Source: Bacteroidaceae bacterium
GTDB taxonomy: Bacteria; Bacteroidota; Bacteroidia; Bacteroidales; Bacteroidaceae
Reading direction: 5' to 3'
NCBI GenBank assembly: GCA_017503645.1
Contig: JAFVSR010000033.1
Location: 1 to 44,647, forward strand
DNA: 44,647 nt
This document shows positions 26,062 through 44,647 of the stretch, one piece after another. The position numbers were made by a program, and so were the translations under genes. The notes beneath the pieces were generated by a model. The model was not told the origin of the DNA. It did not search any database and saw nothing but the letters and a program-made list of their open reading frames with translations. Positions within the stretch are counted from its first letter, which is position 1, and every line of letters begins with the position of its first letter.

Positions 26062-27225
26062 TTAGAGGTTGAATGTGTCCTCGACAAGCTGGCCCATAGC
26101 CCATACACCGCGTATGTTCAAGCCCTCATCGAGAATCATTATGTCGGCATCTTTGTCCTTTTGCAAAGAACCCTTGCGGTCGTAAACACCCATAATCTTA
26201 GAAGGTGTCTCCGATGCCATTCTCACAGCATCCTCCAATGGAATCTCGGCCTTCTGTACAAGAGTGCGTATTAGGCGGTCCATTGTGGCCACGCTACCTG
26301 CAAGAGCGGTGCGGTCGGCCAATTTGCATACACCATCCTCAATGATTACGCGGGGGTCAAATGCTGTTGTGCTGTCGCTGGCTGCGCAGGCAAGAGCATC
26401 GGTGATGACACAAGCCTTCTCCACGCCCTTTATTCTGTGAACGAGGCGCAATATTGTGGGAGGCACGTGAATGCCGTCGGCAACAACCTCCACGGTCATA
26501 TCCTCGTGCAGGTAGATGCTCTCCACAGTACCCTCGTACTTGTATTCGCGGCGTTTGTGGAAACCGGGCATTGCGTTATAGAAGTGGGTTGCGTGTGTGT
26601 AACCGTTCTCGTGTGCCACGTGAATGTCTTCATACTCGGCCTGTGTGTGTGCCACAGATGCCAAAATACCTTTCGATGTGATATATTTACCAAACTGCAT
26701 AGCGCCGGGAAGCTCGGGGGCTGCATCCCAACGCTTGATACAGTTCCATTTTTCAACCAATGGGATGTATTCGTTGGGGTCGGGGTCCTTGATGTTCTCG
26801 GGCAGCTGACCGCCGGCCATCTTCATATTCAAATAGTGGCCTTCCAGGTGCAAACCAAGCACCGGGCTGTTGGGTTCTGCCATAAGTTTTGTACAGGTCT
26901 CAGCAGCAGCCTCAATCATAGGTACGGTAGATGAAGATAGTGTGGGGAAGATACTTGTTGTACCGTGTTTCATATGGGCCTTGATAGCACCACGGAAAGC
27001 CTCTTCTGTGCCCTCCATAAAGTCGCAGCCGCCACCTCCGTGAATGTGAATCTCCACACCACCGGGTACAACGTACATACCTTTGGCGTCAATAACCTCT
27101 GCGCCTATAACGGCAAGGTCGCAGTTTGTTACCTCTAAAATCTTGTTGTCTCTGATAATTACAGAGCCATCCTTCAACCAACCTTGTGGGGTAAGGATTT
27201 TTGCATTTATAATTTGCGTGAGCAT
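26062..27225 (-). CDS. nagA: N-acetylglucosamine-6-phosphate deacetylase
   Basis: Removes acetate from GlcNAc-6-P, feeding amino sugars from peptidoglycan or host glycans into metabolism. The 387-residue amidohydrolase has VEIHIHGGGGCDFMEGT (about 58-74), the metal-site Glu in LHLEGHYLNMKMAGGQ (about 127), His residues in SVAHTQAEYEDI and YTHATHFYNAMPGF, and catalytic Asp in VITDALACAAS (about 274). The usual HLEGPY reads HLEGHY here. The ATG at 27225 (MLTQIINAK) is chosen; the longer ORF start at 27309 lies inside the promoter array. No nagB is adjacent. Confidence 0.93.
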   Translation of the reverse strand: MLTQIINAKILTPQGWLKDGSVIIRDNKILEVTNCDLAVIGAEVIDAKGMYVVPGGVEIHIHGGGGCDFMEGTEEAFRGAIKAHMKHGTTSIFPTLSSSTVPMIEAAAETCTKLMAEPNSPVLGLHLEGHYLNMKMAGGQLPENIKDPDPNEYIPLVEKWNCIKRWDAAPELPGAMQFGKYITSKGILASVAHTQAEYEDIHVAHENGYTHATHFYNAMPGFHKRREYKYEGTVESIYLHEDMTVEVVADGIHVPPTILRLVHRIKGVEKACVITDALACAASDSTTAFDPRVIIEDGVCKLADRTALAGSVATMDRLIRTLVQKAEIPLEDAVRMASETPSKIMGVYDRKGSLQKDKDADIMILDEGLNIRGVWAMGQLVEDTFNL

Positions 27226-27260
27226 AATGTTGTGTGTTATTATAAGTTTTAGTTGTTTCT

Positions 27261-27541
27261 TTTTCGCAGTCGTTGTTTTGCAAAGATAGTGCCAATGAGC
27301 AAATAGCAAAGTTTGCTTTGGCTATTTACTGCGAGTGCAGCCTATTTTCGCAGTCGTTGTTTTGCAAAGATAGTGCCAACGAGCAAATAGCAAAGTTTAC
27401 TTTGGCTATTTACTGCGAGGCAGCCTATTTTCGCAGTCGTTGTTTTGCAAAGATAGTGCCAACGAGCAAATAGCAAAGTTTACTTTGGCTATTTACTGCG
27501 AGTGCAGCCTATTTTCGCAATCGTAGATTGCAAAGTTATCT
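27261..27541 (-). repeat. Tandem 83-84 bp repeats carrying promoters, upstream of nagA
   Basis: Three near-identical units at 27261-27344 (84), 27345-27427 (83) and 27428-27511 (84), then a degenerate part unit at 27512-27541. On the minus strand each full unit holds TATCTTTGC, a full match to the Bacteroidota -7 box, at 27288-27281, 27372-27365 and 27455-27448. The part unit holds TAACTTTG at 27538-27531. Each unit also has an imperfect inverted repeat (AAATAGC-AAAG / CTTTGGCTATTT) whose arm supplies a TTTG about 18 bases before the -7 box. Up to four phased promoters therefore read towards nagA. The units are contiguous, so this is not a CRISPR array. Confidence 0.9.
27281..27310 (-). promoter_or_regulatory. 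nagA-proximal promoter inside the first repeat unit
   Basis: On the minus strand, TTTG then an 18-base spacer then TATCTTTG (27288-27281). The leader to the nagA ATG at 27225 would be about 50 bases. This is the promoter unit nearest to the gene. Confidence 0.6.
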
Positions 27542-27756
27542 AATTTTAATTTTATCAACCATCTTTTTCCACACTTTTTTGCCTTAATTTCAATAAAAAA
27601 TTCCCCCTGAAGCCTCCCTGTCTGTTTTGTTTGCGATGCCCGCATTGTTAAAATGTAATTAAAATATGTATTTAGTTTTCGTTTTGTAAATTAAATTACT
27701 TTTTTGCTTTCAAAATGGTATGGGTTTTATTTTGCGCGATATTTGCGTTTTTACCG

Positions 27757-27777
27757 GCTGTTTTTTGAAAAAACAGC
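27757..27777. promoter_or_regulatory. Perfect 21-base inverted repeat upstream of glnN
   Basis: GCTGTTTTTT and AAAAAACAGC are perfect 10-base arms around a single G. It lies about 80 bases before the glnN -33 box. It could be an operator for a dimeric regulator or a hairpin; nothing decides between these. Confidence 0.4.
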
Positions 27778-27858
27778 GAAAACTGCCTCCCTTTTTCAAA
27801 GATGCGCCCCTGTTTTTCGGAAATTATTATTAAAATCACTGCTTTTTTTACAAAATTC

Positions 27859-27889
27859 TTTGTATTTGAGCGCCTTGGCTGTATATTTG
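27859..27889 (+). promoter_or_regulatory. glnN promoter
   Basis: TTTG at 27859-27862, a 19-base spacer, then TATATTTG at 27882-27889. Both boxes and the spacing match the Bacteroidota consensus exactly. The leader to the ATG is about 80 bases. The rest of 27542-27858 is AT-rich without a visible gene. Confidence 0.75.
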
Positions 27890-27975
27890 CCGGCGGTTAA
27901 CAAATTTACAAAAAGAAAATATTTCAAATGTCAGGCTATGTGGCCGGCTTGCAATAATAAAATAAGGTGAACGAT

Positions 27976-30159
27976 ATGTCAAAATTAAGATTCGAAGTAG
28001 TTACAGCGGCATTTGGCAAGAGTGCCGTAGATGTTCCCAACAAGGAGGAGCGCCCATCCGATTACTACGCAGTGAAGGTTTTTAATCGCGAGAAGATGTA
28101 TAAGTATCTTCCCAAAGATATATTCAACAGCCTCATAGATGTAATAGACAATGGTGCCCCCTTTGATATATCCATAGCCGACGCAGTGGCCGAGGGTATG
28201 AAAAAGTGGGCGGTGGAGAACAATGCCACACACTACACCCATTGGTTTCACCCGCTCACCGAAACCACTGCCGAAAAGCACGATGCCTTCATAGAACACG
28301 ATGGTAAAGGTGGTGTGCTCGAGGAGTTTTCGGGCAAGTTGCTTGTGCAGCAGGAGCCCGATGCCTCATCGTTTCCCAACGGTGGCATACGCAGCACCTT
28401 CGAGGCTCGTGGCTACAGCGCCTGGGACCCTACATCGCCCGCATTCCTCATAGGCGACACACTTTGTATTCCCACAGTCTTTATCTCATATACAGGCGAG
28501 GCGCTCGACTATAAAGCGCCGTTGCTAAAATCGCTCCGTGCGGTAGATAGGGCAGCCACCGATGTGTGCCGTTATTTCGACAAGAATGTAAAGAAAGTTA
28601 CCACCTATCTTGGCTGGGAACAGGAGTATTTTCTTGTAGATGAGGGTATGTTGCTCGCCCGCCCCGATTTGTTGCTCACAGGGCGCACCCTTATGGGGCA
28701 CGACAGCGCTAAAAACCAACAGCTCGAAGACCACTATTTTGGTTCTATACCCGCCCGTGTGGCAGCCTTTATGAAGGACCTCGAGATAGAGGCAATGAAG
28801 TTGGGAATCCCCGCAAAGACCTGCCATAACGAGGCCGCCCCCAACCAGTTTGAGCTTGCACCCATTTACGAGGAGTGCAACCTTGCAGTCGATCACAATA
28901 TGCTCATAATGGCGCTGATGAAAGAGGTCGCCCGTCGCCACGGTTTCCGTGTGTTGCTGCACGAAAAGCCCTTCAAGGGAGTAAACGGTTCGGGCAAGCA
29001 CAACAACTGGTCGCTTGGCACCGACACCGGCACGCTGCTTATGGCACCCGGAAAAACCGATAAGGACAACCTGCGTTTCATTACCTTTGTGGTGAATACA
29101 TTGGCGGCCATTTACCGCCACAACGGCCTGTTGAAAGCCAGCATAATGTCGGCAGCCAATGCCCACCGTTTGGGCGCAGCCGAGGCTCCCCCTGCAATCA
29201 TATCCAGTTTCTTGGGCTCACACTTGTCATCAATCCTCGACCATATGGAAACCACCGACGATGTGGTTAAAATATTGAGCAAGCGCGAATTGCGTCTCAA
29301 TATCCCCGCATTGCCCGAGCTTATGATAGACAACACCGACCGCAACCGCACCTCGCCCTTTGCCTTTACCGGTAACCGTTTCGAGTTCCGTGCCGTGGGT
29401 TCCGAGGCCAACTGTGCAAGCGCAATGATAGCACTGAACACCGCAATGGCCGAGCAACTCACAATCTTCAAAAAGGAGGTTGATACTCTCATAGAAAAAG
29501 GTGTTGCCAAAGAGGATGCCCTGGTAAAGATTATTCGCAAATATATAAAATACAGCAAGCCTGTACGTTTCGACGGCAATGGCTATTCCGACGAGTGGAA
29601 GCGCGAGGCTATGAAACGCGGCCTCGACTGTGAGGCGAGCGCCCCCATAGTATTCGACCGTTACCTCGACAAAGAGAGCGTGGAAATGTTCCGCAAAATG
29701 GAGGTGATGACTGAAACCGAGCTTAAGGCCCGCAACGAGATTAAATGGGAAATGTACACCAAGAAGGTGCAGATAGAGGCTCGCGTGCTTGGCGACCTTG
29801 CCTTGAACCACATAATCCCCACAGCCACCAAATACCAGAGTTCGCTTTTGGATAATGTGATAAAAATGGAACAGGTGATAGGCAAGGAGGAGGGCGAGAG
29901 AATGTCGGCCGAAAACATCTCGCTCATAAAGGATATAGCAATGCGCGTGTCCGAGATACGCCGCCTTGTGCACGAAATGGTGGAGCGCCGCAAGGTGGCA
30001 AACAAAATAACCACAGAACGCGACAAAGCAATAGCATACCACGACACCGTTGCCCCAATGTTGGAGGAGATACGCACCCACATAGACAAGCTGGAACTTG
30101 TAGTGGATAACGAATTGTGGACACTGCCCAAGTACAGGGAATTATTATTTATTTGTTAA
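27976..30159 (+). CDS. glnN: Glutamine synthetase, type III
   Basis: ATP-dependent synthesis of glutamine from glutamate and ammonia, the main ammonium-assimilating step, by a cytoplasmic dodecamer. The 727-residue length marks the GSIII class found in Bacteroidales and cyanobacteria. Seen motifs are WDPTSPAFLIGDTLCIPTVF, LGWEQEYFLVDEG (metal-binding Glu), NEAAPNQFELAPIYEECN, GSGKHNNWSLGTDTG (ammonia/ATP site), AANAHRLGAAEAPPAIIS and NRTSPFAFTGNRFEFRAVG. The ATG at 27976 (MSKLRFEVV) is preferred over the GTG at 27967. It is monocistronic, with a strong promoter upstream and the MITE-like element directly at its stop. Confidence 0.96.
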   Translation: MSKLRFEVVTAAFGKSAVDVPNKEERPSDYYAVKVFNREKMYKYLPKDIFNSLIDVIDNGAPFDISIADAVAEGMKKWAVENNATHYTHWFHPLTETTAEKHDAFIEHDGKGGVLEEFSGKLLVQQEPDASSFPNGGIRSTFEARGYSAWDPTSPAFLIGDTLCIPTVFISYTGEALDYKAPLLKSLRAVDRAATDVCRYFDKNVKKVTTYLGWEQEYFLVDEGMLLARPDLLLTGRTLMGHDSAKNQQLEDHYFGSIPARVAAFMKDLEIEAMKLGIPAKTCHNEAAPNQFELAPIYEECNLAVDHNMLIMALMKEVARRHGFRVLLHEKPFKGVNGSGKHNNWSLGTDTGTLLMAPGKTDKDNLRFITFVVNTLAAIYRHNGLLKASIMSAANAHRLGAAEAPPAIISSFLGSHLSSILDHMETTDDVVKILSKRELRLNIPALPELMIDNTDRNRTSPFAFTGNRFEFRAVGSEANCASAMIALNTAMAEQLTIFKKEVDTLIEKGVAKEDALVKIIRKYIKYSKPVRFDGNGYSDEWKREAMKRGLDCEASAPIVFDRYLDKESVEMFRKMEVMTETELKARNEIKWEMYTKKVQIEARVLGDLALNHIIPTATKYQSSLLDNVIKMEQVIGKEEGERMSAENISLIKDIAMRVSEIRRLVHEMVERRKVANKITTERDKAIAYHDTVAPMLEEIRTHIDKLELVVDNELWTLPKYRELLFIC

Positions 30160-44081: not shown

Positions 44082-44116
44082 AAATGGGCTGCTATTTTTA
44101 GCAGCCCATTTTTAAT
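44077..44116. terminator. Bidirectional terminator between GNAT gene and rnpB
   Basis: Perfect 18-base arms (44077-44094 and 44099-44116) around TTTT, with core AATGGGCTGCTA. A- and T-runs flank the core in both directions, which suits the convergent GNAT and rnpB transcripts. The arms extend to just before the rnpB 3' end. Confidence 0.85.
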
Positions 44117-44462
44117 TGCAGTCGGCCTATAAGCCGGGTTCTGTACCCCTTACGGGGTGCCTGTCATTCATCTATACATTGTGTCGCCACAATGTTAAAG
44201 CGTTCTACCCTCCGGCTCGGGCGAGCAACCCTCAAACACCGGTTTACATGAACTTGCAGCCTCCAAGACACACGGCCCGTACATCGCTGCACGGCCGGTG
44301 GGCTCTTACCCCACCTTCTCACCCTTACCCTTGCGGGCGGTTATTTTCTTCTGCGTTACTCCGCCTTCACAGGCAGCTTTCTGTTAGGAAGTGGAGTGCT
44401 CTGTGCTGCCCGGACTTTCCTCTCTTGCCTTGCGGCAACAGCGACAAGCTGGCCGACTGTAT
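44117..44462 (-). ncRNA. rnpB: RNase P RNA
   Basis: The catalytic RNA of RNase P, which trims the 5' leader of tRNA precursors. On the minus strand the 5' end carries CAGTCGGCC (44459-44451), which pairs exactly with GGCCGACTG at the 3' end (44127-44119) as helix P1. The universal core GAGGAAAGTCCGGGC is at 44422-44408. The 3' core reads ACAGAACCCGGCTTATAGGC (44144-44125). About 345 bases is normal for a bacterial type A RNA. The ends are approximate by 5-10 bases. Confidence 0.95.
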
Positions 44463-44488
44463 AATTTGTTTCATCTATTTTCGCGCTG

Positions 44489-44496
44489 CAAATATA
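44489..44496 (-). promoter_or_regulatory. rnpB promoter, -7 box
   Basis: On the minus strand this reads TATATTTG followed by C, a full match to TAnnTTTG, about 25 bases before the P1 helix. A TTTT lies 19 bases upstream and a TTTG 23 bases upstream, inside the repeat arm. Confidence 0.65.
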
Positions 44497-44647
44497 GTGA
44501 AAACCGAGCGCAGAAAAAACAAACTTGTTTGATTTTTTTTGCCGAGGTGCCTCCTATATTCGAGATTTATCTCAAATATCCCCAAACCGAGCGCAGAAAA
44601 AACAAACTTGTTTGATTTTTTTTGCCGAGGTGCCTCCTATATTCGAG
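44489..44647 (-). repeat. Tandem 84-bp-period repeats upstream of rnpB
   Basis: Two identical 64-base blocks at 44501-44564 and 44584-44647, separated by 19 bases; the window ends within the array. The -7-like CAAATAT also recurs at 44489 and 44573, an 84-base period. The second copy reads GATATTTG on the minus strand, so its -7 box has lost the T. The block contains AACAAACTTGTTTG, an inverted repeat. The architecture matches the nagA array: GGxGCAC-CTCG, then an inverted repeat, then GCTCG, then CACTAT(A/C)TTTGC. Confidence 0.85.

Follow-up and report, generated by a model that had tools for sequence, protein, structure and literature searches.

The tandem array upstream of nagA in a Bacteroidaceae genome is one site of a dispersed palindromic repeat family that carries -7 boxes

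With a probability that we put at roughly 0.65 from comparison of related sequences, the 84-bp tandem array upstream of nagA in a Bacteroidaceae genome holds three copies in a row of a dispersed palindrome that mimics a promoter; this repeat would lodge at a -7 box, supply another and be mobile. The array lies in a stretch of 44,647 nucleotides that was analysed whole and is called the window here. Units of this repeat are dispersed, form a palindrome with compensatory changes, are biased in orientation and carry a box on one strand only. In addition, -7 boxes are enriched on both sides of the units, and unit number differs among close species. From these observations we infer that an array's terminal box serves as the working promoter, and that the family spreads through transposition or else through template switching or recombination at the -7 box. 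Judged from its nearest relatives, the host is an uncultured bacterium, probably of the ruminant gut.

The array spans positions 27261-27535 as an 84-bp repeat of 3.3 copies (TRF, 95% matches, score 501). On its minus strand, TAnnTTTG, the motif reported for the -7 element of the Bacteroides primary sigma factor (PMC7366714), occurs in 3 of 3 units as TATCTTTG and once more as TAACTTTG. Box-to-box steps are 84, 83 and 83, bearing out both the 83-84 spacing and the motif assignment of the initial annotation. The motif is common in the window (61 occurrences against 36 expected from shuffles), yet the regular array is not chance. That annotation had also read three near-identical units followed by a degenerate fourth; the coordinates, the three units and the odd fourth box stand, and the degenerate unit gives way to a native promoter box. 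Namely, the fourth box is read as nagA's own because a related nagA locus that is free of units there (L031) carries an equivalent box: it reads TTAGATAACTTTGTAACATAGATGTAAAGAAACAAC, where the window reads TTAGATAACTTTGCA, then the array, then AAGAAACAAC, in a by-eye alignment drawn from the upstream stretches of 40 of 80 nagA loci. By this comparison the units sit directly behind the native -7 box, near the expected transcription start (Table 1). The gene name is that of the initial annotation, and we take the product to be N-acetylglucosamine-6-phosphate deacetylase.

Table 1. Features of the window around the nagA and rnpB arrays.
Feature	Position	Strand	Score or basis
nagA, amidohydrolase	26062..27225	-	PF01979
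Junction and the GCGAAA with which a truncated unit starts, followed by native leader	27262..27279	-	right edge set against L031
Unit 3, gene-proximal, -7 box 27281-27288	27280..27351	-	83.7 bits
Junction 3, 12 nt	27352..27363	-	
Unit 2, one base shorter, -7 box 27365-27372	27364..27434	-	80.9 bits
Junction 2, 12 nt	27435..27446	-	
Unit 1, farthest from nagA, own -7 box 27448-27455	27447..27518	-	88.2 bits
Junction 1, forming a palindrome together with the native box (TTTGCAATC TAC GATTGCGAA)	27519..27530	-	
Native nagA -7 box TAACTTTG, the fourth box of the initial annotation	27531..27538	-	same box in unit-free L031
Glutamine synthetase type III gene, divergent, across the intergenic region from nagA	27976..30159	+	PF12437
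RNase P RNA, bacterial class A	44114..44460	-	239.1 bits
rnpB variant unit, shortly before RNase P RNA, with terminal -7 box TATATTTG (44489-44496)	44488..44563	-	37.8 bits
Further rnpB-array unit, cut by contig end, degenerate box, ends approximate	44573..44647	-	by eye, no model match

A unit measures 67-78 nt, is joined to its neighbour by a junction of 5-12 nt and has the ends GCGAAnATAG and CTATnTTTGC. We aligned 27 diverse units, derived a consensus structure with RNAalifold and built a covariance model from them; the consensus is one long hairpin whose 22 pairs include 10 with two-sided changes. We then fitted 150 matches (140 distinct) to the covariance model, a step that itself biases towards the structure; pairing holds in 93.1% of cells, and two-sided changes occur in 16 of 22 pairs. 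Sliding the partner by 1-3 columns as a control lowers pairing to 28-51%. Of the cells in the outermost helix, 97.7% are paired. In 125 of 161 units the right end forms a -7 box, a frequency that is partly selected because the right end, unlike the upstream box, belongs to the search model; an opposite-strand box at the left end occurs in 0 of 161. These 161 units are 168 minus 7 of a second class, type B, units off the locus edge or far from full length having been excluded beforehand. The left end places a G opposite a T of TTTG in 126 of 139 cells, which is why the box lies on one strand only, and two more pairs of the hairpin are mostly wobbles.

The family extends well beyond nagA. A plain DNA search gave 25 matches in the own genome, matches in 24 of 24 sampled genus mates and none among 16 other sampled genomes of the order. 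With the covariance model, the own genome (86% complete) contains at least 51 matches at E ≤ 0.01, weak and type-B ones included and with 150 of 1462 candidates scored. In the family sample, 65 of 151 genomes and 18 of 30 genera matched at E ≤ 1e-4, with 125 matches in G007, 67 in G092, 48 in G016 and 19 in G185, a one-contig genome. The order-wide sample matched in 6 of 149 genomes at E ≤ 1e-6, the own genome included, and a phylum-wide sample of 198 genomes matched in the own genome only; samples of more than 40 genomes were scored with stricter filters, at which weak matches are lost. Within the Bacteroidales, families f22 and f29 reach up to 27 and 26 matches per genome. By the order-wide and phylum-wide samples, the family is therefore patchy within Bacteroidales and unseen outside. 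The genus set includes close relatives, so its counts are not independent events, and the named genus relatives are MAGs, the genomes lying mostly in many contigs with array lengths that may be mis-assembled.

Carriage by phages or plasmids was considered and set aside: plasmids contained no unit match, viral contigs no match to one exact unit pattern, and two unannotated 'Bacteriophage sp.' records gave partial unit matches. These two (L326, MT835691.1; and MT836387.1) are of human-faecal origin, are filed as bacteriophage and may be bacterial contigs.

Type-B copies are embedded in a longer repeat, have no -7 boxes and mostly lie close to the 3' ends of genes. In the own genome this longer repeat (L114-L122, L124-L127 and L188; about 230 bp in L120) starts GATGACTAAAAAGTGTATTTGG, holds one or two unit-like hairpins without -7 boxes and has a terminal GAGGCTG...CAGCCTC hairpin seen in both orientations; many of its copies are at contig ends. 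A different arrangement is found at five loci of G007 (L232, L235, L236, L245 and L248), where model matches are in mixed orientation: a second repeat (GGCAACGCGAAATAAGCGTTGC...GGGGCGGCAAGCCGC) with a reversed unit-like match interrupts the units, forming a nested mosaic.

We then took groups of units together with their surroundings, the relatives' loci being part of the listed places, mostly those with the best scores first. From 103 groups, 83 were retained as promoter-type (24 from the own genome, 59 from others), after 16 labelled type B and 4 at contig or locus edges had been dropped; one of the 16, L192, is in fact promoter-type. A perfect -7 box starts 14-27 nt before the first unit in 36 of the 83 (13 of 24 in the own genome) and is absent in 47, with a background of 21 among 1548 positions. 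A perfect right-end box is present in 58 groups and missing from 25; its most frequent distance from the start codon is 15-70 nt. In 63 of the 72 groups with both neighbours called, the units and the downstream gene are co-oriented, although calls from a simple ORF caller are approximate (at the fabD array L108, fabD itself was missed, giving a false distance of 920). Since the upstream gene is divergent in 39 of these 63, those groups are uninformative on orientation; between same-direction gene pairs, units run along the genes in 24 cases and against them in 4 (p = 1.8e-4). The pattern recurs in other Bacteroidales families, where 41 groups show an upstream box in 23 (background 8 of 766) and a right-end box in 41 of 41, and units between tandem gene pairs run along in 16 and against in 3 (p = 0.004).

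Ten proteins were scanned, and the nine encoded downstream of units are mutually unrelated: amidohydrolase, acyl transferase, semialdehyde dehydrogenase, MatE, radical SAM, pantoate ligase, pterin-binding, DNA polymerase III delta and YidC, three of them (L193, L194 and L196) behind weak matches of 34-40 bits. Regulation specific to nagA is therefore rejected; related units precede unrelated genes, and the nagA array is one place of a dispersed family.

Between the upstream box and the left end of a unit, the spacer contains short complementary arms whose letters differ from place to place. Junctions were scored where they had a perfect box followed by GAAnnTA (110 in total; 62 first-unit, with 53 distinct spacers), and some of those counted as first-unit may follow a degenerate unit. 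First-unit junctions have an arm of at least 3 pairs in 53 of 62, against 5.3% after spacer shuffling. As for a box's two free letters, the left end is matched by those of the upstream box in 27 of 62 (13.7 on average in shuffles, of which 0 of 5000 reach this value) and by those of the same unit's right box in 21 of 55 (13.0 on average, reached in 5 of 5000). The left end can therefore pair with the preceding or the following box. Among 48 internal junctions, the box letters are complementary in 12, where shuffling gives 7.9 on average and 185 of 5000 shuffles reach that number. In a wider control, GAAnnTA follows 146 of 894 -7 boxes in the loci, pre-unit boxes included, against 3% when shuffled.

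A NagA search gave 80 loci from named records, and these were searched for units by profile (E ≤ 1e-3). Units were found in 5 of the 80; they lie just upstream of nagA only in L028 (genome G014, three units) and L029 (G013, two), and elsewhere in the NagA locus in L032, L044 and L052. Across the window's genome, G013 and G014, unit number is thus 3/2/3 at nagA, and it is 1/0/1 at asd and at least 2/1/1 at rnpB, where the first array reaches the contig end. Unit number therefore does vary, as had been anticipated, here across close species-level MAGs rather than isolates of one species. In the 12 other genus mates with an rnpB locus, the profile, which recovered the variant weakly (E about 1e-4), found no unit there. 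At fabD the window's genome has 6 units; in G013, which has at least 2, and in G014 the array runs into a contig end. As side observations, G014 has two fabD-like genes, L322 (G014:C47) and L300 (G014:C23), one with and one without units in the stretch printed, and the fabD matches in L307 and L308 (G003 and G004) have one TAA inside the match.

The asd site allows a filled and a unit-free form to be set side by side. The unit-free site in G013 reads TATCTTTGCAG, and the filled sites read TATCTTTGC, then the unit ending TATTTTTGC, then AG. The unit is bounded by TTTGC on both sides, but the box is part of the unit itself, and the flank beyond the site also differs over about 20 nt. Because G013 and the window's genome have identical Asd proteins and that of G014 is 99% identical, a loss in G013 is the simpler reading. 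Against mobility, then, the unit-free asd site would read at least as well as a loss. The orthologous asd hairpins of the window's genome and G014 differ by compensating stem changes.

Under the reading that we favour, of a mobile promoter-mimicking repeat, a unit is an imperfect palindrome: the arm on the gene's side is a -7 box, and the opposite arm comes close to being that box's complement, with G opposite T. It stands directly behind another -7 box, whether native or that of a preceding unit. Its left end can form a second small hairpin with the preceding box, and its right end supplies the downstream gene with a fresh -7 box. Whether units are gained, lost or multiplied in tandem, the gene would still have a gene-proximal box; insertion would for that reason be nearly harmless, and the family could accumulate. 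The repeated boxes would likewise allow tandem growth, and recombination between them could remove units. Copying templated by the palindrome may account for both the compensating stem changes and the arms of the junctions. Mobilisation by a RAYT, as for REPs, is not supported: Y1_Tnp is missing from 7 of 9 genomes tested, namely the own genome (86% complete) and 6 of 8 others, G007 with its 125 matches included, and present in 2 of the 8.

A bolder proposal, which we offer as tentative and think somewhat doubtful, is that the units are a new kind of element. Such an element would target the -7 box, insert at the transcription start, copy the box inversely into the junction hairpin and give a replacement box at its far end. 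Its spread would be nearly free of cost, even at rnpB, and the fixed wobbles (G opposite T of TTTG) would keep its direction.

The initial annotation had instead proposed a tunable promoter dose, in which every unit fires and copy number sets nagA output. Four intact boxes in the window array speak for this, as does the varying unit number among close species. Of 127 box-carrying units, 46 also have a TTTG at 18 or 21 nt ahead of the box, which may or may not correspond to the TTTG around -33 in promoters of the Bacteroides primary sigma factor. The variation holds; firing by all units is argued against, modestly, by the boxes themselves. Across 50 arrays of at least two units, the box is intact in 45 of 50 gene-proximal units against 50 of 80 internal ones (p = 5e-4), and six arrays (L246, L234, one in L236, L136, L111 and L252) have it in the last unit only; at four loci of G185 the last unit ends TTATCTTTGC and the preceding unit in a non-box. 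The case is only modest because single promoter-type units retain a right-end box in just 39 of 56, no better than internal units (p = 0.46); singles and terminal units pooled give 84 of 106 against 50 of 80 (p = 0.014). Other genes with units in front of them are rnpB, fabD, asd and one resembling DNA polymerase III delta, and we consider a promoter dose on nagA unlikely. As to the accompanying idea of eight-turn helical phasing, the period is compatible with it: 53 of 63 adjacent pairs are spaced at 83-85 (all pairs at 77-86), and junctions tend to shorten as units lengthen (72+12, 75+8, 77+8), which holds the sum near 84 (Spearman -0.67, 37 loci). These loci fall into few subfamilies that inherit their lengths, so the phasing rests on few independent observations from related lineages.

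A long covarying hairpin with conserved letters in its internal loops would also suit a structured 5'-leader RNA, in which the transcript from the native promoter folds the unit hairpin and controls elongation, decay or translation. However, once the three fixed wobble pairs are set aside, C-A mismatches are more frequent than G-U pairs (78 against 49), which is not how selection on sense RNA would show; such selection is therefore not favoured. The downstream genes are unrelated, rnpB among them. A known RNA family was likewise set aside: an Rfam scan of 8 sources at gathering score returned RNase P and one tRNA only and matched no unit, and within positions 27000-27900 of the window gave one snoRNA match, below its gathering score and at chance level. 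We judge a leader RNA quite unlikely. An operator, with a global DNA-binding regulator reading the palindrome, would fit a palindrome near promoters with a period of helical scale. Its stem letters nevertheless vary with compensation, and its best-conserved inner letters show no symmetry (CTGCACTCG / CTCGTTTG); we hold this explanation to be very improbable. Hardly credible is an assembly artefact or chance tandem repeat. The MAGs are in many contigs, and since several contigs end in or beside such copies, exact unit counts are uncertain; the family nonetheless occurs in many places and in independent assemblies, with 19 matches in the one-contig genome G185, and the units of the window array differ from each other by point changes.

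Among known repeats, MITEs that bear promoters, such as the Correia element or BrickBuilt, appear closest to the family in the way they work. Its units are short and dispersed with terminal inverted repeats, as in MITEs, the outermost helix being 97.7% paired. The invertible promoters of Bacteroides are another case in Bacteroidales of promoters associated with inverted repeats; the units, in contrast, mostly point at the downstream gene. Correia elements (CREE) of Neisseria are described as dispersed, high-copy inverted-repeat elements with the ability to create promoters at one end or at both, and whose presence varies between strains (PMC2649163). The units resemble them in being dispersed, high-copy and inverted-repeat with a box at an end, and differ from the published description in having that box on one strand (0 of 161 on the other), in often standing behind another -7 box and in forming tandem arrays. 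BrickBuilt of Porphyromonas gingivalis is described as a bidirectional MITE with 23-nt repeats between a leader and a tail, in 19 copies in one strain, and its promoter activity was reported from lacZ tests in E. coli (PMC4596501). The units are likewise found in Bacteroidales, intergenic and tandemly repeated; in contrast to that description, they repeat at 77-86 bp, each being a palindrome with a box, and have no 23-nt core. As far as descriptions allow, the one-strand box, the place behind another box and the unit architecture set the family apart from both.

REPs are described as 20-40 bp long, most with unpaired GTAG or CGTC motifs and predominantly downstream of coding regions (PMC3733652). 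Like REPs and BIMEs, the units are high-copy extragenic palindromes that are sometimes clustered. They depart from the published REP definition in their length of 67-78 nt, in their ends (GCGAAnATAG and CTATnTTTGC) and in lying upstream of genes, and from RAYT-mobilised REPs in the distribution of Y1_Tnp given above. A study of candidate structured RNAs in the human microbiome reports 250 palindromic candidates (PMC8040213). Among the open-access papers searched, judged by titles and abstract openings, we found no description of this repeat family, a result that holds for those parts and does not prove absence elsewhere.

If the favoured reading is true, orthologous genes with 0 to 6 units would form a natural promoter series, and the repeats would point to one cause of MAG contig breaks. 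Selfish or domesticated repeats would have rebuilt tens of promoters per genome, and perhaps more, in gut Bacteroidales, that of rnpB included, with a -7 box left in place despite such rebuilding. It would then be clear how a repeat is able to enter a gene at its most sensitive point.
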